Part shown: positions 1 to 26,771 of the stretch, piece by piece
Layout: each line of letters opens with the position of its first letter
Numbering within the stretch: position 1 is the first letter of the stretch
Origin: a virus
Virus record (IMG/VR): IMGVR_UViG_3300027733_000028
Location: 124,001 to 188,000 of that record
Direction: 5' to 3' (one strand)
DNA: 64,000 bases
Notes under the pieces: model-generated
The model's database searches: none
What the model was told of the DNA's origin: nothing
What the model saw: the letters and a program-made list of their open reading frames with translations, nothing else
Program-made: the position numbers and the translations under genes

Positions 1-284
1 CTAATATAATTACTCGTGAAATTGGTAAAAACTCTCATTGGTTTATTAATCATCCAACAGTAGTTTACAGAAAATCTAAGATTCGAGAAATTGGTGGTTA
101 CGATGAATCTTTACGAGGTCTTCCTGAAGATTATGAACTTTGGTGTCGTTCTTTACGTAATGGATTGACCATACATAACATTGCTCTTCCTTTAATATTT
201 CTAAGACTTTCGCCAAAATCACTTTCTCAAAATTTCGATTCTAGAGTACTTGATTTTCTAAATCAAAACCAGAAAACCCTATGA
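1..284 (+). CDS. Glycosyltransferase family 2, C-terminal part
   Basis: Open at the left edge; the frame starting at base 3 reads 93 residues to TGA at 282-284. The visible HPTVVYRKS, GGYDE and PEDYELW segments are typical of the acceptor-side half of GT-A fold family 2 glycosyltransferases. The catalytic DxD half lies outside the window. Its stop overlaps the start of the next gene (ATGA), so it belongs to the following sugar operon and probably transfers a sugar to a phage or host-envelope acceptor. Substrate unknown. Confidence 0.7.
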   Translation, partial: NIITREIGKNSHWFINHPTVVYRKSKIREIGGYDESLRGLPEDYELWCRSLRNGLTIHNIALPLIFLRLSPKSLSQNFDSRVLDFLNQNQKTL

Positions 285-1054
285 TAACTACTGCATTAAT
301 AGGTGGACTTGGAAATTACATGTTCCAAATTGCCACAGCTCATTCTATCGCTAAAGATGTAAGAACTGATGCCTTTTTTGATTTAAGTAGAACCGGCCAA
401 TCACAAAGACACATCAATTATTATTTAGATAATATCTTCAAAAATGTAAAGTTCGGAACCCCAATCCCGAAATACTTATATAACGAGAAAAAATTCAGTT
501 TTGATACGATCCCAGCAGTAGATGATTTATATTTAAGCGGATATTTTCAAAGTGAAAAGTATTTTGAAAAATACGCTAAAGAAATACGAGATCTATTTAG
601 ATGCAAAGAAACTGAAATTAAATTAAGGGAACATATCTCACAAATCGATTTTACTTGCTCAATACATGTTAGACGAGGAGATTATCTTCAATATCCGAAT
701 AAACACAATCAATCACCTGCAGATTATTATAAAACAGCAATTCAATTAGTAAAAGATCAATTTCCTAATTATGAAGTAACTTTTCTGGTATTCTCTGATG
801 ATATACAATGGTGTAAAAATCATTTCATTGGAATGGAATATATGTTCATTGAAGGATTCGAAGATTGGGAAGACATGATACTCATGTCTTTATGTGATGC
901 TAATATTATAACAAATTCCACCTTTTCTTGGTGGGCAGCTTGGTTAGGTGAAACTCCTAATAAGCTAATCATTGCACCAGAAAAATGGTTTGGTTCAGAA
1001 GGACCACAAGATCAACAAGATATTATACCTGAACGATGGATAAAATTAAGATAA
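281..1054 (+). CDS. Alpha-1,2-fucosyltransferase-like (GT11)
   Basis: 257 residues, close to the usual family 11 length. Visible: N-terminal GGLGNYMFQ (8-16), which is the GT11 signature; GYFQSEKYF (about 87-95); HVRRGDY (129-135), the conserved GDP-fucose-binding region; and STFSWWAAW near 213-221. These enzymes transfer L-fucose from GDP-fucose in alpha-1,2 linkage. The next genes encode a second fucosyltransferase and a GDP-fucose synthase-like enzyme, so donor and transferases are supplied together. Its end overlaps the next gene by 19 bases. The acceptor (virion glycoprotein, DNA or host polysaccharide) cannot be read from sequence. Confidence 0.85.
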   Translation: MITTALIGGLGNYMFQIATAHSIAKDVRTDAFFDLSRTGQSQRHINYYLDNIFKNVKFGTPIPKYLYNEKKFSFDTIPAVDDLYLSGYFQSEKYFEKYAKEIRDLFRCKETEIKLREHISQIDFTCSIHVRRGDYLQYPNKHNQSPADYYKTAIQLVKDQFPNYEVTFLVFSDDIQWCKNHFIGMEYMFIEGFEDWEDMILMSLCDANIITNSTFSWWAAWLGETPNKLIIAPEKWFGSEGPQDQQDIIPERWIKLR

Positions 1055-1866
1055 GAGATTATGCCTTTGCTCATGCAAAGTACAGTACAGATTTTCAAAA
1101 CTCTCAATTTATTGAATGGGATAGAGGACCTATAACTGCTGAAGACAAAGTGGTATTCTATACTGACAATTCATTAGAATTAGTTCACCGAGAATCTTCG
1201 CAAAATGCACATTGTAAAAAGATTGCATGGTTGCTAGAACAGGTGGATGTATGTCCTCATTCATACGATTTCATCCGAATAACTCGTTATTTTGATTTAG
1301 TTCTTTCGCATAACATAGATTTCGTAAATGAAATGCAAAATCGAGGAGTTGAAGCATTATGGGTACCATTTGGTGGTTGTTGGATAAAACCAGAAGATCA
1401 ACGAATATATGATAAACATGGAATGACTTCAATCATTGCATCAGATAAACAAATGACGGTTGGTCATCGTTTACGACACTCAGTCATTGCAGCAACTAGA
1501 GATAAACTAACTGTTCGAGGAAGAGGCTATACGCCTGTTGATTATAAGCTCGATTTACTCAAAGATTTTAGATTCCATGTAGTTATTGAAAACGCTAATA
1601 TTGCTGGTTGGTTTACTGAAAAGCTAATTGATTGCTTTAGAACAGGAACCGTTCCTATTTATTGGGGAAATCCTCTGATCGAAGAAATTTTTGATCGTGA
1701 AGGAATGATACTTTGCTACAATGAACAACAAATTATTGATGCAATAAATTCTGTTACTCTAGAAAAATATGATACGATGAAAGAGGCAATACAACGAAAT
1801 TTCGAAATTGCACAAACCTACCTAATTGCCGAAGATTATATCTATAAAAATATTCTCAATAAATGA
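1036..1866 (+). CDS. Alpha-1,3/4-fucosyltransferase-like (GT10)
   Basis: 276 residues. The C-terminal half holds the GT10 donor-binding signature: FRFHVVIENANIAGWFTEKL (178-197), followed by the V-P-I-Y-W-G motif near 206-211. The N-terminal half is the acceptor-binding lobe and is less conserved. The family uses GDP-fucose. Pairing with a GT11 enzyme suggests a branched fucosylated glycan. Translationally coupled on both sides. Confidence 0.85.
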   Translation: MDKIKIRDYAFAHAKYSTDFQNSQFIEWDRGPITAEDKVVFYTDNSLELVHRESSQNAHCKKIAWLLEQVDVCPHSYDFIRITRYFDLVLSHNIDFVNEMQNRGVEALWVPFGGCWIKPEDQRIYDKHGMTSIIASDKQMTVGHRLRHSVIAATRDKLTVRGRGYTPVDYKLDLLKDFRFHVVIENANIAGWFTEKLIDCFRTGTVPIYWGNPLIEEIFDREGMILCYNEQQIIDAINSVTLEKYDTMKEAIQRNFEIAQTYLIAEDYIYKNILNK

Positions 1867-2789
1867 AACAAAAAATTCTAATAACTGGATCTAATGGAAT
1901 GGTTGGTAAAGACCTTATTAGATTAATAGAAGACGAAGGGTTATACTCAGTAATAGGAGTTCCTTCTAAAGTATATGATCTTAGAGATTCTCAAGAAGTA
2001 TTTGGTTTATTGAGACTCAATAAACCGGATATTGTAGTTCATTTAGCTGCAAAAGTCGGAGGAATTGTAGATAACATAGAAAAACCTGCAGAATACACAG
2101 AAGATAATTTACTAATGAATACGAACATCGTATCAGCTTCTCGTAATTTTGGAGTAAAAAGATTAATTGGAATTCTTTCAACTTGTGCATATCCTGATAA
2201 AGTTGAAATTTATCCCATGACAGAAGAACAACTTCATGATGGTCCACCGGCACCAACTAATTTTGGTTATGGTATATCTAAACGTTGTATGGCATCTCAT
2301 ATAGATGCAATCAATAAACAATATGGATTGGAATATCAATATCTAATTCCCTGCAATTTATATGGAGAACACGATAAATTTGATAATCAAAGAGCACATT
2401 TCATATCAGCTCTAATCAAAAAGATATTAGATGCTAAAGAACAAAATGCAGAAGAAGTAACCCTATTTGGTGATGGAACTCCTCTTCGTCAATTTATGCA
2501 TTCTAGAGATTTAGCTAACATCATATATGAATGTATCAAAAATGATATAACCGAATCAATGAATGTGGCAACTGAAGATAATTTATCTATTGATGAAATG
2601 GCACATATTGCTAGAACTTCTTTAGGTGCCGATCATATAAAAATAAAATACGATATCACCAAACCAAATGGTCAATTTCGTAAAGATGTTTCAATACAAA
2701 AATTACGTAAACATTTCCCTGACTTTAAGTTCACTACTTTAAGCGAAGGAATCAAACAAATATATCAAACTTATGCAAAAAGCAATTAA
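1863..2789 (+). CDS. GDP-L-fucose synthase-like epimerase/reductase
   Basis: 308 residues, the full length of Fcl/WcaG. NAD(P)-binding GSNGMVG at 9-15; short-chain dehydrogenase triad Ser106 with Tyr136 and Lys140 in YGISK; HLAAKVGG (60-67), typical of GDP-4-keto-6-deoxymannose epimerase/reductases. It makes GDP-L-fucose by 3,5-epimerisation and 4-reduction. Because the next gene looks like ColD, the enzyme might instead be the related ColC, which finishes GDP-colitose. No GDP-mannose 4,6-dehydratase lies in the window, so the 4-keto intermediate would come from the host or from a gene further left. Confidence 0.85.
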   Translation: MKQKILITGSNGMVGKDLIRLIEDEGLYSVIGVPSKVYDLRDSQEVFGLLRLNKPDIVVHLAAKVGGIVDNIEKPAEYTEDNLLMNTNIVSASRNFGVKRLIGILSTCAYPDKVEIYPMTEEQLHDGPPAPTNFGYGISKRCMASHIDAINKQYGLEYQYLIPCNLYGEHDKFDNQRAHFISALIKKILDAKEQNAEEVTLFGDGTPLRQFMHSRDLANIIYECIKNDITESMNVATEDNLSIDEMAHIARTSLGADHIKIKYDITKPNGQFRKDVSIQKLRKHFPDFKFTTLSEGIKQIYQTYAKSN

Positions 2790-3951
2790 GTTAGTATCCG
2801 ACACAATTGATAAGAAAGATCTAAAGGCTCTATCTGATTGGATGTTACACTCAGAAACTCCACAATTAACAAAAGGTCCTTTAACAATTGAATTTGAAAA
2901 GAATTGGTCAGAATGGTTAGGTGTAAAACATACGACTTTCGTAAACTCCGGTTCATCTGCAATTCTTTTGGCGCTTGCCGCATTAAAAGAAACAAATCGT
3001 TTAAGAAACGAAAAAGTCGTAGTTCCTGCATTGAGTTGGGTAACCGATGTTAGTTCTGTTATGCAATTAGGAATGACTCCTATTTTATGTGATTGTAATA
3101 ATGAAGATCTTTCATTAGATCTCGATGATTTAGAGAAGATATTTATTGAAGCAAATCCTTCAGTAATGATTTTAGTTTCCGTTCTTGGTCTAGTACCAGA
3201 TATGAATAATGTTGTTAAGCTTTGTAAAAAATATGGAGTTTATCTTATTGAAGATGTATGTGAAAGTATGGGATCTTCTTATAATGGAAATAAACTAGGA
3301 ACCTTTGGTGACATATCTTTATTTTCACTTTACTATGGACATCATATTTCAACTATTGAAGGTGGTTTAATTTGTACTAATAACGAAGAGCTAAATACCA
3401 TAATTCGATCAATGAGATCTCATGGTTGGGATCGCGATTGGAACGATAAAACCAAACGAGAATATAGAGATCTATATGATATATCAGAATTTGATTCAAT
3501 GTATACATTCTATTATCCAGGGTATAATCTCAGATCTACTGATTTACAAGCCTTCATTGGTTTACGCCAAATAGGAAAGATCGACGAATTTGCTAAACTT
3601 CGTTCGTATAATTTCACGATCTATCAAGAACTTTTATCAGAATACAATGAATTAGATATTGAATATCGAGAAAATACATTTATTTCTAATTTTGCATATC
3701 CTATGGTACATGCAAATCGAGAAAAAATTATTACTGCTCTTCGAGAAAAAAATATTGAAGTTCGACCTTTAATTGCCGGAAATATGGCAAACAAACCATT
3801 TTGGAAAATGAAATATGGTGATCGAGATGATTACTTCTTCAATTGTGTTGACATTGATAAATGTGGATTCTATCTACCAAATCATCAAGGTTTAATCCGG
3901 GAAGACATTGAATTCATATGTTCAATAATTATCAAACATGCAAAATCTTAA
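2773..3951 (+). CDS. ColD-like sugar 3-dehydratase (DegT/DnrJ fold)
   Basis: 392 residues, PLP-dependent fold type I of the DegT/DnrJ/EryC1/StrS group. NSGSSA (58-63) binds PLP phosphate and EDVCES (160-165) the ring. The usual Schiff-base lysine in SFxxxKxxxxGEGG is replaced: residues 188-198 read YGHHISTIEGG, so His191 sits where the Lys should be. Known ColD and RfbH 3-dehydratases make exactly this Lys-to-His change and remove the C3 hydroxyl instead of transaminating. The likely reaction is GDP-4-keto-6-deoxymannose to the 3,6-dideoxy intermediate of colitose. Overlaps the previous gene by 17 bases. Confidence 0.8.
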   Translation: MQKAIKLVSDTIDKKDLKALSDWMLHSETPQLTKGPLTIEFEKNWSEWLGVKHTTFVNSGSSAILLALAALKETNRLRNEKVVVPALSWVTDVSSVMQLGMTPILCDCNNEDLSLDLDDLEKIFIEANPSVMILVSVLGLVPDMNNVVKLCKKYGVYLIEDVCESMGSSYNGNKLGTFGDISLFSLYYGHHISTIEGGLICTNNEELNTIIRSMRSHGWDRDWNDKTKREYRDLYDISEFDSMYTFYYPGYNLRSTDLQAFIGLRQIGKIDEFAKLRSYNFTIYQELLSEYNELDIEYRENTFISNFAYPMVHANREKIITALREKNIEVRPLIAGNMANKPFWKMKYGDRDDYFFNCVDIDKCGFYLPNHQGLIREDIEFICSIIIKHAKS

Positions 3952-8295: not shown

Positions 8296-8523
8296 ATGTC
8301 ATACCGAGAATTAATCCCAAATTCAAATTTTTCTAATCCTCTTAACGAATTAATGTTTAAATTCATGGATCGTTTAGATATGGATGCTCGAGATCGAGAG
8401 ATCTTCGAGGATTTGGCGTTATTCATTTATCATGAAGGTAAATTAAAAGGTGCAGAAGAGTACTTAAACGAAATAACTGAAATTAAATTAATAGATAATG
8501 GAGAAAACAAAACAGCCGATTAA
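8296..8523 (+). CDS. Hypothetical protein, 75 aa
   Basis: Not recognised. Small acidic helical protein. A CATATAATTA box lies at 8282-8291, only 4 bases before the ATG, so either the start is later or transcription begins upstream. Overlaps the next gene by 26 bases. Confidence 0.5.
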   Translation: MSYRELIPNSNFSNPLNELMFKFMDRLDMDARDREIFEDLALFIYHEGKLKGAEEYLNEITEIKLIDNGENKTAD

Positions 8524-10102: not shown

Positions 10103-11416
10103 ATGAAAAGATTATTAAAGTATAAAGACTTTGTTGAAGTTTTAAGCGAAGGTGCTAGACTTCAAGCATTGGTCGATGATCTTCCTTTGTTTGAAGGTGG
10201 TGCATACGGTCACCTATCACATCCTTTCGAAGACATGAATTTGACTATGGCAGATTTGCATACGATGATACAAGATACTGTTAATGGATCTTTTGGTCCT
10301 GAGAATTTTGTTCAAGAGAAAACTGATGGTCAGCAAATATCAATATCTTGGAAGGATGGTAAATTGATTGCGGCAAGAAATAAAAGTCATCTAAAGAATG
10401 CTGGCGAAGCCGCATTAGATTCTTCTGGTATTGCTTCTATGTTTGCTGGTCGTGGTGATATCGAAATTGCCTATAATGCAGCAATGGAAGATCTTCAAAA
10501 ATCTATTGGCGGTTTATCAGATAAAGATAAATTAGCCTTCTTTGCTAATGGTAAGAAATTCGTTTCATTAGAAGTTATTACGCCTATCACACAAAATACA
10601 GTTCCTTATGGTCAAAATATGCTTGTATTCCATGGAGTACTTGAATATGATGAATCCGGAAATGTTATCGATGAAGATAAACAAGCTGCTAGAAATCTTG
10701 GTAAATCAATTGCTGATGCGAATCTAGCTGCACAGAAAATGTTCTTTGTTAGAGGACCTCAAGATATGGATATTAAACCATTTCCTAATACCGCAAAAAG
10801 ATCTTCATATTACGAAAAGAAATACAACGAAATCCTTACTACTTGTGGATTAACTGATGCATCTACCGTATTTGATTATGCAATAGGTATGGCTAGATTA
10901 GTACTTGAAGAAGAAGCTAAATCTGCAAAGGTTGAAATCCCTGCATCTGCAATCGATGGTTTGGCTGCACGTATAGCAGATATTAATAAGTCTTTTTCGG
11001 TTTCGTTAATCAAGAAAGAACTTGGTGATAATGCTGATTGGTATTTTGATCTAGAAAAGAAAAGTGCCAAACAACTTAAACGTAAAATTTATGCTCCTCT
11101 TGAATCGCTTTTCCTTGAAATAGGAACAGAATTCATGAAGAATATGTCTACCTTCCTATCTGCAAATCCTACGGAAGCAGCCGAAGCAATGAAAAATGAA
11201 ATTGATTCTACTATCGCAAAGATTCGTACAAATGGTGACGAAAAAGACGTAGAAAAATTAGAACACGAATTAACTAGAGTTACTGCTGCTGGTGGTGTCG
11301 AAGGATTGGTTCCTACTGAAGGAATTACATTCGTTTATAAAGGTAAACTTTATAAGTATACTGGAATTTTCGCTCCACTACATCAAATACGCTCTATTTT
11401 AGCTTATAAAAAATAA
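10103..11416 (+). CDS. CTS-tagged nucleotidyltransferase/ligase-fold protein
   Basis: 437 residues from the ATG at 10103; the frame is open from 10007 but the upstream part spans a terminator, and MKRLLKYKDFVEVLSE is a capsid-targeting-like leader with predicted cut after Glu16 (LSE/G). EKTDG (72-76) fits the KxDG motif I of covalent nucleotidyltransferases, Glu157 in FVSLEV motif III, VEGLV (about 399-403) motif IV and the Lys-rich strand after it motif V. It could be an RNA or DNA ligase or related adenylyl enzyme packaged in the head. Substrate unknown; Lys73 is the predicted nucleophile. Confidence 0.65.
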   Translation: MKRLLKYKDFVEVLSEGARLQALVDDLPLFEGGAYGHLSHPFEDMNLTMADLHTMIQDTVNGSFGPENFVQEKTDGQQISISWKDGKLIAARNKSHLKNAGEAALDSSGIASMFAGRGDIEIAYNAAMEDLQKSIGGLSDKDKLAFFANGKKFVSLEVITPITQNTVPYGQNMLVFHGVLEYDESGNVIDEDKQAARNLGKSIADANLAAQKMFFVRGPQDMDIKPFPNTAKRSSYYEKKYNEILTTCGLTDASTVFDYAIGMARLVLEEEAKSAKVEIPASAIDGLAARIADINKSFSVSLIKKELGDNADWYFDLEKKSAKQLKRKIYAPLESLFLEIGTEFMKNMSTFLSANPTEAAEAMKNEIDSTIAKIRTNGDEKDVEKLEHELTRVTAAGGVEGLVPTEGITFVYKGKLYKYTGIFAPLHQIRSILAYKK

Positions 11417-11612: not shown

Positions 11613-12068
11613 ATGACCGGATTGTTCAAAATTAATGAAGATTCTGCCTTTGGACCGGGAATGATGTTTGGCATCCCTGGTCCTGGTCCAAAAGCGGATT
11701 CTCCAAAACAACCTTCTGATAAAAAGAAGGAAAAAGGAATTACCCCGAAACAAATGAAGAAGACTATACCATCATTCAAAAAATTTAACGAAGGTTTTGC
11801 TTACGTTAAAGATCCTTTCAGAGAAGGTGAAAGGATGTTCAGTAAAGATATTAAAATAGACAATGTTGCTGTTATTAATATCAATGGTTCTATTGATGGA
11901 TTAGATGCTACACACACAGCAATCGTATCCGTTATAACTAGTACTATGGATAACTTCGGCGAAGATCTTGGTAAAGAACGAATCATATTAACACAAAAAG
12001 ATTTTACCACTAAAGCAGAGGCTGAAAGCTTTTTGAAGAAAATTGAAAAAGAAATTATCTACAAATAA
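11613..12068 (+). CDS. CTS-like protein with two candidate tags
   Basis: 151 residues from 11613. The first residues read MTGLFKINE (possible INE/D site at 9), followed by a Gly/Pro-rich stretch; residues 48-60 read MKKTIPSFKKFNE, a much better tag. Translation could therefore start at 11754 (104 residues), or the first 60 residues may all be removed. The C-terminal domain (about 75-150) has VAVININGSIDGLDATHT and an alternating beta/alpha pattern, not recognised. TAATG overlap with the next gene. Confidence 0.6.
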   Translation: MTGLFKINEDSAFGPGMMFGIPGPGPKADSPKQPSDKKKEKGITPKQMKKTIPSFKKFNEGFAYVKDPFREGERMFSKDIKIDNVAVININGSIDGLDATHTAIVSVITSTMDNFGEDLGKERIILTQKDFTTKAEAESFLKKIEKEIIYK

Positions 12069-12655
12069 TGAAGAAATTTAAAGAATTCGTTACAGATATT
12101 CTGATATTTGAAAAGATTGATGGAAAGGAAGTTTGTATATTTCCTGGACGTTTTCAACCTTTTCATAATGGACATATTGAAGCAATACATCGAACAGCAA
12201 AAGCTTTCGGAGTTCCTGTTATCCCGGTACAAATCAAATCAAAGAACGAAAATTCACCTTTCCCAGATTCTCTTCTAGAAAAGATTGGTAAGGCCATGAT
12301 TAAAGAATTTCCTTTCATTGAAGATTATGTACTTTATCCTCCTGATAAGAAAACTGTAGTACCTCAAATGGTTAAATTCCTTCAAGAAAAGGGTTATGAT
12401 CCAATTGGTATTGGTTGTGGAAGTGATCGTTTAAGAGATTATGAACGTCAAGTTGAATATCTAACATCACCGAAATCGGATGTTCAAGTTAATAAATTTT
12501 CGGTTGCAATGGTTGATGAACGAAGAGCCGATGGTCCTTCAGGAACAAGAGTTCGTGAAGCACTTATGAATGATGATAAAGAGGCATTCGAAAAAGCTAC
12601 ACCAAGATCACTACATCCTTTCTATAAAGAGCTACAAAAATACCTTAAAAAATAA
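12068..12655 (+). CDS. CTS-tagged NMNAT-like nucleotidylyltransferase
   Basis: 195 residues. After the leader MKKFKEFVTDILIFE (candidate IFE/K cut at 15) comes a complete cytidylyltransferase-like fold: GRFQPFHNGH (27-36), the HxGH nucleotide-binding motif, and SGTRVR (158-163), the second phosphate-binding motif. Length and motifs fit archaeal-type nicotinamide mononucleotide adenylyltransferase (NadM). It would make NAD+ from NMN and ATP. Co-occurrence with ADP-ribosyltransferases, which consume NAD+, is suggestive. CTP-type substrates cannot be excluded. Confidence 0.8.
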   Translation: MKKFKEFVTDILIFEKIDGKEVCIFPGRFQPFHNGHIEAIHRTAKAFGVPVIPVQIKSKNENSPFPDSLLEKIGKAMIKEFPFIEDYVLYPPDKKTVVPQMVKFLQEKGYDPIGIGCGSDRLRDYERQVEYLTSPKSDVQVNKFSVAMVDERRADGPSGTRVREALMNDDKEAFEKATPRSLHPFYKELQKYLKK

Positions 12656-12671
12656 AAATCATAATATAAAT

Positions 12672-14195
12672 ATGAAACCTATTAAAAACTACAACGAATT
12701 CATTAATGAAGCATGGATTGGTCCATTCGTATTCAATGAAGACATGACCGATGATGAACTAAAGGCTATATACCAAGGTGCATTAGATGGATTTGCTTAT
12801 TGGCAAAAAGGATTTGAATATCCAAAAGCCGATTACAAAAAGGCATATACTGAAATTGGAAAGATTCTAAAGAAAAGAGGAGTTAATGTTGATGAATCTG
12901 TTAATGAAGGATCTAACGACGAAATGGTAAAACGGAGTTGTGTCGAAAGACTTTCTCAATTCTTTAGAGTTAGTCCAAACGCATTATCACATTTCAAATT
13001 TGATGGAACCGATAACATTAAAGCTTTAACAAAAGCTCTTAATTCTACATCAGATGAAGGAACCGAGGCATACTATAAAGTAGCAATCCGAGTTGGAAAA
13101 CAAGATGCCGGTATCGAAGAATCTATCGAGGAATCAGCTAAATGTCCTCCTATATACATTCCGGTATTATCTAATATCGATCATACTAGAATAATCAAAT
13201 GGATGGATATTCATTTTGATAGTCATAAATGGGATATGAAGAAATCCGGTGCTGGTTTTGAAATCGATGTTGAAAAACTATCTAGTCAAGAACAAGATGA
13301 TTTATTAAAATATTTACACTCACAAGATTATTTAGAAGAATCTGTTAATGAAGCTTGGAGTAATATAGACACCGACAAAGCTGCCGATCTAATCAATAAA
13401 GAAATTGGAGTTAATCCTGGTTATTTCTTTATTGGCGATGAAGATTTATGCATCAAATTTGATAAATTATGGACTGAAAAGAAATACAAAGTAGCTCTTA
13501 ATATGTTATTTTTTATTGAAAATCTAAAAGATCTTAAAGACTTCATAAAACAAAACCAAAACGAATCGGTTAATGAAGCAGTATCACCAGAAGTACATCG
13601 TATGGTTAATAAATTTGTAACCGGTATGGCTGATAAATATGATTATTCTTTACAAGATGCAGTTTATGCAATACTAGACGTTTTAAAAAGTCAAAAATAT
13701 AAAGGATTAAAAGAATCTGTTAATGAAGGTGAAACTTTAATATTTGATGAGATCGGAGAAAACCTAACCAAACTTCAGGATCAAATAGATGCAATGCTTA
13801 AATGGGAAATCACCGATCAAAAATGGATCGTTGCACTTAAAACAATTCAATCTGCCTGTTCTAAATTGGAAGATACTGTCGCTAAAGCTGATCAGAAATT
13901 AGGTGCTATTGAATATAATGAATCCATTAGTGAAGGTCTTTTAAAATTAGATGAAGGTGCTGTTAAACAATTTGAGATCGATTATAAAGACATGGAAAGT
14001 AGTATCAAACGAGGTATTGGTTGGATTGATCCTGAATATGTGGCTGAAACTTGGGAGAATTCTTCAGATACTATTGATTATGAAATAGTTAGAAATGAAA
14101 TTCTTACTCGTCTAATTAAAGCCGATCTTCTTTATACATCACTAGATGGAGAAACTAAAGGTAAAAGAATTACCAACATAAGTCAAATTAAATAA
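12672..14195 (+). CDS. CTS-tagged polyprotein with repeated (V/I/L)xE sites
   Basis: 507 residues from the ATG at 12672, chosen because MKPIKNYNEFINE is the canonical tag (cut after Glu13); upstream in-frame residues overlap the NMNAT gene. The same site recurs inside: ESVNE/G 79, ESVNE/A 227, ESVNE/A 302, ESVNE/G 352, ESISE/G 421 and LDE/G 428, with a weaker IEE near 154. Sites lie 50-75 residues apart between compact acidic, helical segments. This looks like a chain of small proteins separated by prohead-protease sites. None of the segments is recognised. The stop codon overlaps the next start. Confidence 0.75.
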   Translation: MKPIKNYNEFINEAWIGPFVFNEDMTDDELKAIYQGALDGFAYWQKGFEYPKADYKKAYTEIGKILKKRGVNVDESVNEGSNDEMVKRSCVERLSQFFRVSPNALSHFKFDGTDNIKALTKALNSTSDEGTEAYYKVAIRVGKQDAGIEESIEESAKCPPIYIPVLSNIDHTRIIKWMDIHFDSHKWDMKKSGAGFEIDVEKLSSQEQDDLLKYLHSQDYLEESVNEAWSNIDTDKAADLINKEIGVNPGYFFIGDEDLCIKFDKLWTEKKYKVALNMLFFIENLKDLKDFIKQNQNESVNEAVSPEVHRMVNKFVTGMADKYDYSLQDAVYAILDVLKSQKYKGLKESVNEGETLIFDEIGENLTKLQDQIDAMLKWEITDQKWIVALKTIQSACSKLEDTVAKADQKLGAIEYNESISEGLLKLDEGAVKQFEIDYKDMESSIKRGIGWIDPEYVAETWENSSDTIDYEIVRNEILTRLIKADLLYTSLDGETKGKRITNISQIK

Positions 14196-15097
14196 TGCTA
14201 AAATTTAATCAATTTGTTAACCTGATTCTTAATGAAGGAGGTAATGCGATTGAGGATGCTCGTCCTATTTTGCAATCTGAAATAGATGCAACGTATGCAT
14301 ATGTTATTAAAAACATATATCCTCTTATTGGTCTTGCCGAAGATTTTGCTAAACCAATAGGATCTTTTAAGAAAAAAGCACCTGATCAAACATCTGGTGA
14401 TATCGATATTGCCGTTCTTGCTGATAGAATTGCCGGAGAAAATGGAATTGATTTATCTCAGGTTCTTGAATTCATCGCATCTAAATTGAGTGATTATTCT
14501 CCGGTCGTTAGTAAAGGGTTTCAACAAGTTTCTATAGGTGTTCCAATTGAAGGTGATAAGAAAAAAGGTATTGCACAAATTGATTTGATGCTAACAGATA
14601 ATCTGAATTTTTCCTCCTTCATGTATCATTCACCAGACTTTACTCAAGCAGAATCCAAATATAAAGGACTTTACCGTAATATTCTACTAATGAATATCAT
14701 TAGCAATTCGAAACGAGAAACTACCAAGCTAACCGACAAAGGTGAAATTGAAGAATATCGTTCATATGTACTTCGTCTAAATCAAGGTGTTGTTGCGGTA
14801 ACCAAATCGTTTATAGGTAAGAAAGGGTTAGTTAAGAATCCTACATTACTCAACGATCAAGATAAATTTATGTCTAATACTCCAGAAGTTATTGCGGAAT
14901 TGGCATTCGGTCCGGATGTTCCCATTTCAGAAATAATGACTTTTGAAGATACTTGGAGACATACAATGGATTCTAAATTTATTCACCAAGATAAATTAGA
15001 TGCAATTCTAAAAGATTTCAGAACTAGATTACTTGCTGCTAAAGTTCCTTTCCCTATTGAATGTGTAGAACAATACCCAAATATATTTACATCATGA
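14195..15097 (+). CDS. CTS-tagged pol-beta-type nucleotidyltransferase
   Basis: 300 residues. Leader MLKFNQFVNLILNE with predicted cut after Glu14 (LNE/G). The DNA polymerase beta-like pattern is present: Gly56-Ser57, then Asp69-x-Asp71 (SGDIDIAV), then a third acidic residue, Asp130, in AQIDLML. The family transfers nucleotides to RNA, protein or small molecules; examples include antibiotic adenylyltransferases and MNT toxins. A second tagged protein at 46905 has the same layout. Target unknown. Confidence 0.75.
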   Translation: MLKFNQFVNLILNEGGNAIEDARPILQSEIDATYAYVIKNIYPLIGLAEDFAKPIGSFKKKAPDQTSGDIDIAVLADRIAGENGIDLSQVLEFIASKLSDYSPVVSKGFQQVSIGVPIEGDKKKGIAQIDLMLTDNLNFSSFMYHSPDFTQAESKYKGLYRNILLMNIISNSKRETTKLTDKGEIEEYRSYVLRLNQGVVAVTKSFIGKKGLVKNPTLLNDQDKFMSNTPEVIAELAFGPDVPISEIMTFEDTWRHTMDSKFIHQDKLDAILKDFRTRLLAAKVPFPIECVEQYPNIFTS

Positions 15098-16620
15098 TGT
15101 TAAAATACAATCAATTCGTTCAATGGTTAAATGAATCAGCTATGGCTCCAGTTGAATGGAATGAGAAGCCTAAATATCGAGTACAATTTCTTAGTTTCTT
15201 AGAAGATAAAAATAAAGAACTTATAATTGATGGTAAATACAAATCCTCATATCCATTTCTAACTTTCAAAGTTTCTGATATTTCTAATTTAGAAGATATA
15301 CAATCGTTTATAAAAAGTGATAAAGCGGTTTCATCTAAAGAACCTTTAATGGATGTTGATGCAGTTAAAATACCATTAACACATTTGCTAAAAACTGGAT
15401 TATTTACTAATCAATCAAAGACTTCAACTGATACCGATACTAAAGAAGGTATGGTTGTTTATTTCTACTACAATCAAGACGCAGACATTCTTTCTATAAA
15501 AAATTCAGAAGCAGTTGCATTAGTAGATAACATTCCGAATGGAGATTTACATCCAAAAGCTATGGATAAAATTAGATTATGGTTATCTGATTTTGATAGA
15601 GAAAATGAAGAACAAATCGCTCAATGGAAATCTACCGGTAATGTAATGGCTGAATTTTTATCGAATGGATATCATTTAGACCGAAATGATATACTTATAA
15701 AAGTTAGAGATAGGGCAAGAATACTTTCTGGTTTAGCACCGGATAATTGGTGTCCTGGAGACGTTTACTTAGTAGATCCTTCTGCTAAATCTACCATACT
15801 TGATTATGTAAATAATGCAAAAACCATAGGAGAATTAAATTTATTATTCAATGATTCATTCACACCAAGAGAAACCTCAGCTGAACCTATGGGATCTCTT
15901 GTAGCGGTTTCTCTTAAACAACAAGTAGCTAGATTAGGTAGAGCAAAAGAATTCCTAAAAACAATATCCACAAAAGATTCAGTATATAACCTTACAAAAG
16001 AAGAATTGGTTAAATGTAAAACTGATGAATCTTGGGCAAAAGCAGAAATTTCTAATTATCAACAACTCTTAGGAACTATCGCTTCTAAATCAGAGATAAC
16101 CGTTCATTATAACCCTGGAAGTGTAGATCGTATTAAACCGGCTTTATTACCTAGTAAATTGGCTGCCATAAAATTAACTTATCATCTACTTACTTTACCA
16201 AAAGAATCACCGGAAGATCTTGATGATAATCTTCTAAGTGTTCTTCAATTTGGACTTAAGCAAGCCGACAAATCAACAAATCCTCCATATTTCAAAATCA
16301 CCGGAAGTATAAAAGGTGAAGGTAGTTTAGAGTTCTTTCATGGAGGAGATACTTTAAAGTTATTAATTGGAGGAATTGGTAACAAAGAAGCCAAGCTAGT
16401 TATTTTAGATTTACCTAGTAGATTAGATATTGTTCTGTTTTATTACGTTTCAATTGGCGATACTGCATATGAAATTCGTTTAAGGTCGGCAACTACCAAT
16501 AGTAAACAAGCCGGATTAGAATTTGAAAGAAAAGATATTATCGGAAATCTTGTAGAAGATCCTCAAGGAACAACATCTAAAATAGATAAATTATTCCATC
16601 AAAGATCCTCGATGAAATAA
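15094..16620 (+). CDS. CTS-tagged protein, possibly nuclease-like
   Basis: 508 residues from the ATG at 15094, which overlaps the upstream stop as ATGATGA-type coupling; 15097 is an equal alternative. Leader MMLKYNQFVQWLNE, cut after Glu14. Around residues 218-285, PDNWCPGDVYLVD and, after a gap, SLVAVSLKQQ resemble the D...SLK core of PD-(D/E)XK nuclease-like phage proteins. The C-terminal part is beta-rich. Function uncertain. Confidence 0.6.
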   Translation: MMLKYNQFVQWLNESAMAPVEWNEKPKYRVQFLSFLEDKNKELIIDGKYKSSYPFLTFKVSDISNLEDIQSFIKSDKAVSSKEPLMDVDAVKIPLTHLLKTGLFTNQSKTSTDTDTKEGMVVYFYYNQDADILSIKNSEAVALVDNIPNGDLHPKAMDKIRLWLSDFDRENEEQIAQWKSTGNVMAEFLSNGYHLDRNDILIKVRDRARILSGLAPDNWCPGDVYLVDPSAKSTILDYVNNAKTIGELNLLFNDSFTPRETSAEPMGSLVAVSLKQQVARLGRAKEFLKTISTKDSVYNLTKEELVKCKTDESWAKAEISNYQQLLGTIASKSEITVHYNPGSVDRIKPALLPSKLAAIKLTYHLLTLPKESPEDLDDNLLSVLQFGLKQADKSTNPPYFKITGSIKGEGSLEFFHGGDTLKLLIGGIGNKEAKLVILDLPSRLDIVLFYYVSIGDTAYEIRLRSATTNSKQAGLEFERKDIIGNLVEDPQGTTSKIDKLFHQRSSMK

Positions 16621-16650: not shown

Positions 16651-17238
16651 ATGTATACTAGAGAACAGATAGAAGGAGCCGTAAAGGCTAAAGGATACGT
16701 TTGGTTTGAAGGGGAAAAAGATTACGATGTTAATATCGTGGGAGTTAGAAATTCAGCCACTGGCCAAAAAGTTACTAATGTATTTGATGATACATTAACA
16801 CTATCCTATAAGATTGCCGGTCAATGGAAATTCCATACCTGGATATGTACAACTGACCCTGGTAAAAAGGGTGTTATGGAATATCATAATGCTGCTGGTG
16901 TTGCAAGATTAGTCGAAGGACAATATCGTGGATCTCATACTATCAGATTACATCAAGGAAAATATGAAGCTTTAGGGCAAGCTAAAAACGTAAAAGTTTA
17001 TAGAGATGCTAACCGAGATTTAACTTATAACGAAGATAAAATTCAAGAAGGAGTTTTTGGAATTAATATTCATAAAGCCGGTGCCGATTCAACATACGTC
17101 GAGAATTGGTCAGAAGGTTGCCAAGTATTTAAAAAATCAGCAGACTTTGAAGAATTTATGACTATAATCAGAAAATCAAGAGATATTCATGGTAATTCTT
17201 TTACCTATACTCTAATTGAATCTACTGATATCGCCTAA
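16651..17238 (+). CDS. L,D-transpeptidase-like (YkuD-like) protein
   Basis: 195 residues. The segment FGINIHKAG...WSEGCQVF (about 137-160) has the His...Ser-x-Gly-Cys arrangement of YkuD-type L,D-transpeptidases and related peptidoglycan enzymes; Cys157 would be the nucleophile. The usual final Arg of SxGCxR is not evident. No signal peptide. Own late-type box. Likely acts on peptidoglycan during entry or lysis. Confidence 0.55.
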   Translation: MYTREQIEGAVKAKGYVWFEGEKDYDVNIVGVRNSATGQKVTNVFDDTLTLSYKIAGQWKFHTWICTTDPGKKGVMEYHNAAGVARLVEGQYRGSHTIRLHQGKYEALGQAKNVKVYRDANRDLTYNEDKIQEGVFGINIHKAGADSTYVENWSEGCQVFKKSADFEEFMTIIRKSRDIHGNSFTYTLIESTDIA

Positions 17239-17252
17239 CAAATATATACATT

Positions 17253-17687
17253 ATGATACTAAACTACCAAGAATATCTTGCTTTAGAAGAAGCCGCTAAG
17301 TACTCAATCGATAAAAATCATTCTCTAATTGCCGTTCATGGTCTTTCATTGAGAGATCAAATACACGTTTGGCATTGGCAAACCGAGGTTGGCGATCAAC
17401 ATAAAGCCTTAGGAGAATTTTACGAAAACTTATTAGAAACTCTCGATCAATTAGTAGAAGCTATAATGGGAAAATACGGAAGAATTTCTGTTAAGACGGT
17501 TGGATCTCCTAAACCTCTTGTTGATCTACAAGATCTAAAAAACATTGACGCTTTTGTTGATGAATACATAAAACTTTTTGACAATTTCAGAAACACAACT
17601 TTCAAAAATGATACAGAAATTCAGAATATCATAGATGAAATCGTTGCAGAAGCTCTTAAATTGAAATATCTCCTAACAATGTCTTAA
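17253..17687 (+). CDS. CTS-tagged ferritin-like helical protein
   Basis: 144 residues. Leader MILNYQEYLALEE (possible LEE/A cut at 13). The body is a helical bundle: HVWHWQTEVGDQHKALGEFYENLLETLDQLVEAI (about 38-71) has the His/Glu spacing seen in Dps-like and other ferritin-like phage proteins. A metal-binding or oxidative-stress role is possible. Last gene of the first capsid-targeted cluster. Confidence 0.65.
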   Translation: MILNYQEYLALEEAAKYSIDKNHSLIAVHGLSLRDQIHVWHWQTEVGDQHKALGEFYENLLETLDQLVEAIMGKYGRISVKTVGSPKPLVDLQDLKNIDAFVDEYIKLFDNFRNTTFKNDTEIQNIIDEIVAEALKLKYLLTMS

Positions 17688-25763: not shown

Positions 25764-26771
25764 ATGGAAAGAAAATTAGCAAGCATTCAAGTCATTCGAG
25801 ACATTCGTCCTATTGAAGGAGCAGATGCAATCGAATTAGCAATCATTAATGATTGGCAAGTAGTAGTCGCAAAAAGCGTAGGTCATCAAGTTGGCGATCA
25901 TGTTGTTTATTGTGAAATTGATTCATTCTTACCTATAAGAGAAGAATTCGAATTCTTGCGAAAAAGTTCTTATAGGAAGATGGATGATCTAGAAGGATTT
26001 CGTCTTAGGACTATAAAACTTCGAGGACAAATATCACAAGGACTTATCGTACCAATAAGTATATTTGGTGATTTTGGATGGACCGCATATGAAGGTCTTG
26101 ATGTTACCGAAAGATTAGGAATTATAAAATACGAACCACCTATCCCTGCAGAATTAGCCGGTAAAGTAAAAGGAAACTTTCCTTCATTTATACCAAAGAC
26201 TGACGAAGAAAGAATTCAAAATCTAACTGACAAATATGAGACTTGGAAAACTCAACCATTTTATGTTACTGAAAAATTAGATGGATCATCCGCAACCTAC
26301 TACTTCCGCAATGGAGAATTTGGAGTGTGTTCTAGAAATCTAGATCTTGAAGAAACTGAAGGTAATACCTTTTGGAAGATTGCTCGAGAATTAAAGATAG
26401 AAGAATGGTTAGGAACACAATCAATTAATTATGCCATTCAAGGTGAGTTAATTGGTGAAGGTATTCAAGGAAATCCTTATAAGATCAAAGGACAAACGGT
26501 TCGCTTCTTTAACGCATTCAATATAGACAAATATGAATACTTAAGTTTAGAAGAATTCGAATCCCTAATCACTTCAATGAAGTTAAAAACCGTTCCAATT
26601 ATCGATCGTGCATTTACTTTACCTAATACAATCGAAGAACTTCTTAATTATGCCGATAAGAAAAGTGAATTGAATAATCAATTTGATCGTGAAGGTGTCG
26701 TTATTCGTAGTATCGATCGAAAAATCAGTTTCAAAGTAATCAGTAACAAATTTCTACTAAACGAAAAATAA
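25764..26771 (+). CDS. RNA ligase, DRB0094/Rnl5-type
   Basis: 335 residues. The N-terminal 110 residues match the OB-like domain of Deinococcus DraRnl-type ligases. The ligase core starts with TEKLDGSSATYY, where Lys171 of KLDG is the AMP-accepting residue; GELIGEGIQGN (motif III), REGVVIR (motif IV) and SFKVISNKF (motif V) follow. Seals nicked RNA. A phage use is repair of tRNA cut by host defences. Confidence 0.9.
   Translation: MERKLASIQVIRDIRPIEGADAIELAIINDWQVVVAKSVGHQVGDHVVYCEIDSFLPIREEFEFLRKSSYRKMDDLEGFRLRTIKLRGQISQGLIVPISIFGDFGWTAYEGLDVTERLGIIKYEPPIPAELAGKVKGNFPSFIPKTDEERIQNLTDKYETWKTQPFYVTEKLDGSSATYYFRNGEFGVCSRNLDLEETEGNTFWKIARELKIEEWLGTQSINYAIQGELIGEGIQGNPYKIKGQTVRFFNAFNIDKYEYLSLEEFESLITSMKLKTVPIIDRAFTLPNTIEELLNYADKKSELNNQFDREGVVIRSIDRKISFKVISNKFLLNEK

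Follow-up and report, generated by a model that had tools for sequence, protein, structure and literature searches.

Our analysis supports the assignment of P0001, a gene in the window studied here (the whole stretch of 64,000 nucleotides taken from a 207 kb IMG/VR virus record), to the ligase-type nucleotidyltransferases, on the grounds of its invariant catalytic residues, of a fold search and of an intein that interrupts relatives at the catalytic lysine. Beyond this, we hold it a little more probable than the contrary that P0001 is a covalent (lysyl-AMP) nucleotidyltransferase of the RNA ligase type, belonging to a nucleic-acid (probably tRNA) repair module that is packaged in the phage head, matured by protease and injected. 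A first-pass annotation of the same DNA had proposed a ligase-type protein with a head tag, and in both respects it agrees with our results; it misplaced one catalytic motif, and it missed the partner enzymes and fusion proteins described below.

Conserved motifs and predicted fold of P0001

The features of the gene are as follows (↓ marks a cleavage-type site).

10103 to 11416, + strand: P0001, gene for a ligase-type nucleotidyltransferase of 437 aa, from its ATG at 10103 to its stop at 11416 (relatives, AlphaFold2, Foldseek)
10103 to 10150, + strand: capsid-targeting-type tag MKRLLKYKDFVEVLSE, residues 1-16, followed directly by GA, with an LSE↓G cleavage-type site (site scan)
10151 to 10195, + strand: second propeptide segment, ending LFE31↓GG (site scan; low confidence in the AlphaFold2 model)
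10211 to 10234, + strand: conserved element H37-x-x-H40-P-F-[ED]-D44 ahead of motif I (alignment)
10316 to 10330, + strand: motif I, E72-K73-T-D75-G76 (invariant; K73 on K99 of T4 Rnl1 in hhalign; split intein between K73 and T74 in L010)
10319 to 10321, + strand: codon of K73, the predicted adenylylated lysine
10373 to 10381, + strand: motif Ia, A91-R92-N93 (invariant; pairs with SRN in the classical RNA ligase of the window)
10559 to 10609, + strand: motif III, FVSLE157VITP161xxxN165xxxY169 (aligned with E159...P163...Y171 of T4 Rnl1)
10679 to 11287, + strand: mostly helical insert of about 200 residues (193-395) between motifs III/IIIa and IV (AlphaFold2 secondary structure, alignment)
11312 to 11332, + strand: motif IV, P404-T-E406-G407-I-x-F410 (invariance in the alignment)
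11351 to 11365, + strand: motif V, Y417-K418-Y-T420-G421, which is KxT and not the classical KxK (alignment)

The first-pass annotation had let its proposal of a covalent nucleotidyltransferase stand or fall with the conservation of Lys73. This residue is invariant, together with D75 and G76, in 43 aligned relatives reaching down to 39% identity, and all three are also unchanged in three remoter relatives (31-33% identity). Invariant in the 43 aligned members are E72, K73, D75, G76, A91-R92-N93, E157, P161, N165 and Y169 in the N-terminal part and E406, G407, F410, Y417, K418, T420 and G421 in the C-terminal part; they make up motifs I, Ia, III, IV and V as known from the covalent nucleotidyltransferases. 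The three elements KTDG, FVSLEV and VEGLV, on whose order the earlier proposal was built, are indeed found at residues 73-76, 153-158 and 399-403, and E157 within FVSLEV is one of the invariant positions. VEGLV, however, had to be given up as motif IV, as its residues vary among relatives; the true motif IV is PTEGI five residues on, with the consensus P404-T/S-E406-G407-I across the family. Motif V reads K418-x-T420 in 43 of the 43 relatives, its first Lys being retained and its second replaced by Thr, and it is for this reason that we file the family as working like covalent nucleotidyltransferases and qualify its membership. With this qualification and a corrected motif IV, the covalent nucleotidyltransferase reading stands on the invariant motifs, on fold matches to RNA ligases and on the intein at Lys73.

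That intein is a natural split intein located exactly between K73 and T74 of the ligase-type gene in two relatives, L010 and L011, and is recognised by the Pfam model Intein_splicing in both its N-half (1e-10) and its C-half (1.4e-6). Inteins favour active-site motifs, and the insertion therefore supports the role of K73 independently of the alignment. In L010 (6010-7791), and at the same site in L011, the ORF carrying the intein N-half ends in a stop and the ORF with the C-half begins afresh.

P0001 is not recognised by any Pfam, PHROG, NCBIfam or PDB sequence model. Over the 43 family members the Pfam model RNA_ligase (PF09414) gave a best E-value of 0.0086 and matches in 9 of the 43, without reaching its cut-off, and PF09511 (Rnl1) is absent among the matches listed for them. 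Structure prediction, which had been proposed as a check, was more informative and places the core of the protein with RNA ligases. The AlphaFold2 model, built from the alignment, has a pLDDT of 82.7, residues 1-36 being disordered and of low confidence, and the top 16 Foldseek matches in the PDB are without exception RNA ligases or entries annotated as such ligases, led by a fungal tRNA ligase (E 1.8e-3, probability 0.99) and including T4 Rnl1, a Palaeococcus RNA ligase and T4 Rnl2. Since the E-values of the PDB matches all lie above 0.001 and the TM-scores range from 0.2 to 0.25, the likeness is one of the core fold only; both weak values are probably due to the helical insert. Classical DNA ligases appear in this search only at E>4. 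Against BFVD, full-length phage homologues come first and RNA ligases next.

At the level of profiles the relationship is faint. The hhalign comparison of the family with T4 Rnl1 is weak (0.088 for the whole, 0.014 with the insert removed, 0.48 for a Pol-beta control) and is in register for motifs I, Ia and III, with K73 falling on K99 and E157, P161 and Y169 on E159, P163 and Y171. The classical RNA ligase that had been noted at 25764 is confirmed by Pfam RNA_ligase (8e-27) and PHROG 968 (7e-86), and motifs I and Ia of P0001 align with it at E 0.008. In summary, P0001 shares with T4 Rnl1 (PF09511) and with the adenylyltransferase domain of fungal tRNA ligase the KxDG motif I, a motif III of the E-x3-P-x3-N-x3-Y type, the EG motif IV and the best fold matches; it differs from both in having no significant sequence homology, in the insert of some 200 residues between motifs III and IV, in the KxT motif V, in its capsid tag and in the absence of a C-terminal domain, the AlphaFold2 model ending without a domain, OB-fold or other, beyond motif V. 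Two other weak signals were discarded: a match to the NgoMIV restriction enzyme (E 0.034), one among several of its kind, and PDB profile matches to ribosomal protein S6 and colicin, which lie mainly inside the helical insert.

Capsid-type tags on P0001 and its neighbours

The second element of the earlier proposal, a capsid tag, likewise finds support, as the tag recurs in relatives and neighbours of P0001 and a similar one is carried by an NMNAT of cyanophage S-SCSM1 that is seen in virions. In P0001 itself [LIV]xE↓[AGS] sites occur only at residues 14-16 and 29-31. Of 64 distinct relatives, 44 read xxE↓GG and the other 20 LLM↓GG at the position ahead of the conserved GGAYGH, and free-standing relatives begin similarly, for example with MKLLSYSKFQDMLKE↓A and MNKLFTYEEFLTE. 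P0001 thus combines an N-terminal tag bearing an [LI]xE↓[AGS] site with a gp21-type protease encoded in the same genome. The record encodes a prohead protease of the gp21 type and a capsid protein of the gp23 type, which indicates a T4-like head; among the carrier records of the family the protease is present in 13 of 13 and the gp23 capsid protein in 12 of 13. In T4, ten residues of IPIII are enough for targeting (PMC9026906). The internal proteins and Alt of T4 resemble P0001 in their short N-terminal tag, cleaved after [LI]xE by gp21 (PMC9026906), and differ in cargo, which here is a set of repair-type enzymes and in marine versions takes the form of polyproteins with internal sites. A match of P0001 to phrog_3499 ("internal head protein") was not significant (E 0.26).

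A simple tag pattern, which shuffled ORFs match at a rate of 0.6% each, picks out five ORFs between 10 and 17.3 kb (P0001 and those starting at 12068, 14195, 15094 and 17253) and only two elsewhere in the window; the tag of the ORF at 12672 was recognised by eye. The tagged neighbours are the following.

12068 to 12655, + strand: tagged NMNAT/cytidylyltransferase-like enzyme, GRFQPFHNGH (Pfam CTP_transf_like 1.4e-8; NCBIfam PRK01153 3e-7, below its cut-off)
12672 to 14195, + strand: tagged protein with 12 [LIV]xE↓[AGS] sites against 1.9 expected (site scan)
14195 to 15097, + strand: tagged Pol-beta-superfamily nucleotidyltransferase, GS...SGDID...QID (alignment, AlphaFold2, Foldseek, synteny)
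15094 to 16620, + strand: tagged 508-aa protein, MMLKYNQFVQWLNE↓S
17253 to 17687, + strand: possible tagged small helical protein, MILNYQEYLALEE↓A

In the NMNAT-like protein the tag is followed by no consensus site (DILIFE↓K). The 12672-14195 product consists of small segments with near-identical ESVNE↓[AG] linkers between them, and six of its 12 sites lie in this repeated linker, in general form ES[VI]xE↓[AGS]; from its sequence it looks like a small beads-on-a-string head polyprotein. The Pol-beta protein carries the GS...DxD signature plus the third Asp, and its AlphaFold2 model (pLDDT 83) matches DNA polymerase beta in Foldseek (E 5e-6, probability 1.00); its tag is conserved throughout its family. 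In this protein and in the 15094-16620 product the sole [LIV]xE↓[AGS] site is at residues 12-14. The latter has no Pfam or NCBIfam match, and matches only weakly the unknown PHROGs 22706 and 1462. The ligase-type, NMNAT-like and Pol-beta genes lie close together in at least eight related contigs and overlap in one of them (L028). In the window's genome a CCA-like enzyme and a P-loop kinase are encoded separately, neither with an obvious tag, and no tRNA genes were found within the 64-kb window.

Two further genes of this region deserve mention. By eye, the 17253-17687 protein is like Dps/ferritin-like phage proteins, and a packaged DNA protector is conceivable. A YkuD/endolysin-like protein (PHROG 3000, 33083) is encoded at 16651-17238 amid the tagged genes, and in some relatives such a gene stands between the ligase-type and NMNAT-like genes.

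Fusion proteins of marine relatives and the DUF6267 proteins of cyanophages

With at least 577 IMG/VR stretches encoding relatives of P0001, the ligase-type family is widespread, and current annotation does not recognise it; three phage-collection records encode relatives as well, and in 84,980 bacterial and archaeal genomes searched a relative was found on one contig only. In marine relatives the ligase-type domain forms the C-terminal end of fusion proteins of up to 1,909 aa, and 39 of the ORFs retrieved have an NMNAT-like motif upstream of it in the same frame. Further domains found in fusions are a PolyA_pol/CCA tRNA nucleotidyltransferase (6.8e-30 in L059, 1.5e-29 in L095), an HD domain (6e-7, L059), a P-loop kinase of the AAA_33/Zeta type (3.6e-9, L046) and a Nudix domain (L083, L087). 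A huge-phage version (L014, 3462-6218) has an N-terminal ParB_N-like domain followed by the NMNAT-like and ligase-type domains. The NadM/NadR fusions of phages share with these proteins a HIGH-type adenylyltransferase, sometimes together with Nudix or a P-loop kinase; unlike in NadM/NadR, however, the NMNAT-like domains here have a KxDG domain of the ligase type and a capsid tag attached to them, and they score below the NadM model cut-offs.

In 14 non-redundant fusions the motif [LI]xE↓[AGS] occurs 40 times in the linkers, where 11.9 are expected and none of 200 shuffles reaches 40, as against once in the ligase domain (6.6 expected), and the mirror motif is found in the linkers 12 times (12.3 expected). 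This restriction of predicted protease sites to linkers suggests polyprotein processing inside the phage head as a strategy of delivery. The fusion gene shares its strand with the prohead-protease gene and lies 5.8-8.0 kb upstream of it in each of the six marine contigs examined and in the cultured Microcystis phage Mel-JY01 (PP395634, protein WWT39297.1); in the window's genome the ligase-type gene is about 82 kb from the protease gene.

Virion proteomics of cyanophages covers enzymes of the partner type only and not the ligase-type protein (PMC9602691, PMC10665884). By mass spectrometry, S-SCSM1 virions contain an NMNAT, ORF91 (PMC9602691), which we take to be the 409-aa NMNAT-like ORF of the S-SCSM1 genome, whose product begins MKSFLQFLKE↓AAESG and thus has a tag of the P0001 type. 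S-CREM2 virions contain a cytidylyltransferase, the partner enzyme alone being named in that study, whose authors caution that virion proteins may be carried over from infected cells (PMC10665884).

S-PM2 and many other cyanophages encode a protein recognised by the Pfam model DUF6267 (PF19782), with a cytidyltransferase as its neighbour or its fusion partner. The DUF6267 proteins of S-PM2, P-RSM6 and S-CAM4 share with the P0001 family an HLEHLED element, in the same place as H37-x-x-H40-P-F-[ED]-D44 of P0001, a motif I reading KWDGAP, the elements GTK, QGDLL and, near the C-terminus, PEGFV...K, and the cytidyltransferase partner; HLEHLED, KWDGAP, QGDLL and PEGFV come in the same order. The partner follows DUF6267 in cyanophages but precedes the ligase-type domain in the marine fusions. 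P0001 matches the S-PM2 DUF6267 protein by fold in BFVD (E 3.4e-4), yet hhalign of the two families is not significant (E 0.42), and there is no DUF6267 Pfam match for P0001, nor among the matches listed for its relatives. The shared motifs and the fold match, set against the missing profile match, make common descent likely. S-PM2 p143 was rejected as a ligase-like partner, as it is without KxDG. A frame disruption divides the DUF6267 protein of S-PM2 in the older record of this phage (p141/p142; L115, 5026-6805), whereas UniProt A0A0M6VVW4 lists a 591-aa S-PM2 protein; the old annotation probably hides a fusion.

A proposed packaged repair module and competing explanations

The results show conserved catalytic residues, the fold class, the tags, the linkage of genes and of domains and the distribution of protease-type sites; from them we infer adenylyl transfer, cleavage and packaging of P0001, an RNA substrate and a role in counter-defence. 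The propeptide of P0001 would act in capsid targeting in the manner of T4, so that the protein is packed into the prohead with the tagged NMNAT-like, Pol-beta and other enzymes, trimmed after [LI]xE by the gp21-type prohead protease and, with its partners, injected along with the genome. Inside the new host the enzyme would most likely seal RNA, with tRNA as our best guess, RNA and probably tRNA being favoured by the CCA-type and kinase partners. The kinase may tidy ends at the 5'-OH, and the HD domain possibly at 3' or cyclic phosphates; Pol-beta or CCA-type enzymes would restore missing nucleotides and the NMNAT support NAD. A host defence of the anticodon-nuclease type could in this way be undone ahead of phage gene expression. 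The same kit would take the form of one long polyprotein, cut at its linkers, in many marine T4-like phages. We advance tentatively, and as a proposition falling just short of an even balance, that T4-like phages, mainly unisolated marine ones, package such a protease-cut polyprotein kit of kinase, CCA-type tRNA nucleotidyltransferase, HD phosphohydrolase, NMNAT-like enzyme and a previously unrecognised RNA ligase family, and inject it to reverse RNA or tRNA damage in the host before phage expression.

But might the set not rather serve NAD supply or repair, the NMNAT-like enzyme being after all the most constant companion of the ligase-type protein? It would then rebuild NAD+ on entry against NAD-depleting defence, with the KxDG domain as an accessory adenylyltransferase or a NAD+-using enzyme. 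Nudix fusions as in NadM, the NMNAT of cyanophage virions (PMC9602691) and established phage NAD salvage (PMC9503650) would all fit. NAD salvage, however, needs no ligase core and has no place for CCA-type, HD and Pol-beta partners; the NMNAT-like matches stay below equivalog cut-offs; and ahead of motif I, where the AlphaFold2 model has disorder and one helix and Pfam finds no match, inspection of sequence and model reveals no recognisable NAD-binding domain Ia. We consider this explanation unlikely, though not negligibly so.

The similarity of the Pol-beta-like partner to a gap-filling DNA polymerase raises another possibility, to which we give rather little credence, namely that P0001 is a head-packaged DNA ligase or nick sealer which, with this gap filler, mends nicks and restriction cuts in incoming phage DNA. 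KxDG enzymes include DNA ligases, and incoming DNA is the first target of attack at entry. Yet the fold matches of P0001 are RNA ligases, an OB-fold domain after motif V is missing, and CCA-type tRNA nucleotidyltransferase domains are among the fusion partners. The missing C-terminal ligase domain together with the helical insert would permit a different acceptor, and T4 injects head enzymes such as Alt that modify host proteins; P0001 might thus transfer AMP (or RNA) onto a host protein or RNA 5' end in a role comparable to that of Alt. This we regard as improbable, since repeated association with CCA-type, kinase, HD and Pol-beta enzymes is more in keeping with end processing. Finally, a structural internal head protein or pseudoenzyme on a ligase fold, as tagged head cargo, abundant helices and a KxT motif V could be taken to indicate, is very hard to reconcile with catalytic positions of motifs I, III and IV that are all invariant across highly diverged sequences and with an intein inserted at the catalytic lysine, a choice of place that usually marks an active site.

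The RNA repair enzymes Rnl1 and PseT of T4 are made after infection starts, and anticodon-nuclease defences can act early. If our preferred reading of a packaged RNA repair module is true, the packaged enzymes close the time gap between the two, in a pre-emptive, protein-delivered form of RNA repair. Parts of the picture have precedents. Polyvalent proteins are already known as injected multidomain phage proteins (Iyer et al. 2017, PMC5512222), and phage RNA-repair sets of RNA ligase, CCA enzyme, RlaP Pol-beta, kinase and phosphoesterase have been described (PMC7824862). In the passages of these two papers considered here, no domain of the RNA ligase type figures as tagged head cargo or in fusions with CCA-type, kinase and NMNAT-like domains, and a literature search for a packaged RNA ligase or for DUF6267 returned nothing matching; priority for such cargo and fusions is nevertheless not certain.

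Elsewhere in the window, inspection revealed a cluster at 281-3951 of fucosyltransferase-like, GDP-fucose-synthase-like epimerase and sugar aminotransferase-like genes, and more glycosyltransferases at 8498 (Pfam Glycos_transf_2) and 21539. Taken together, these genes suggest that the phage builds glycans.
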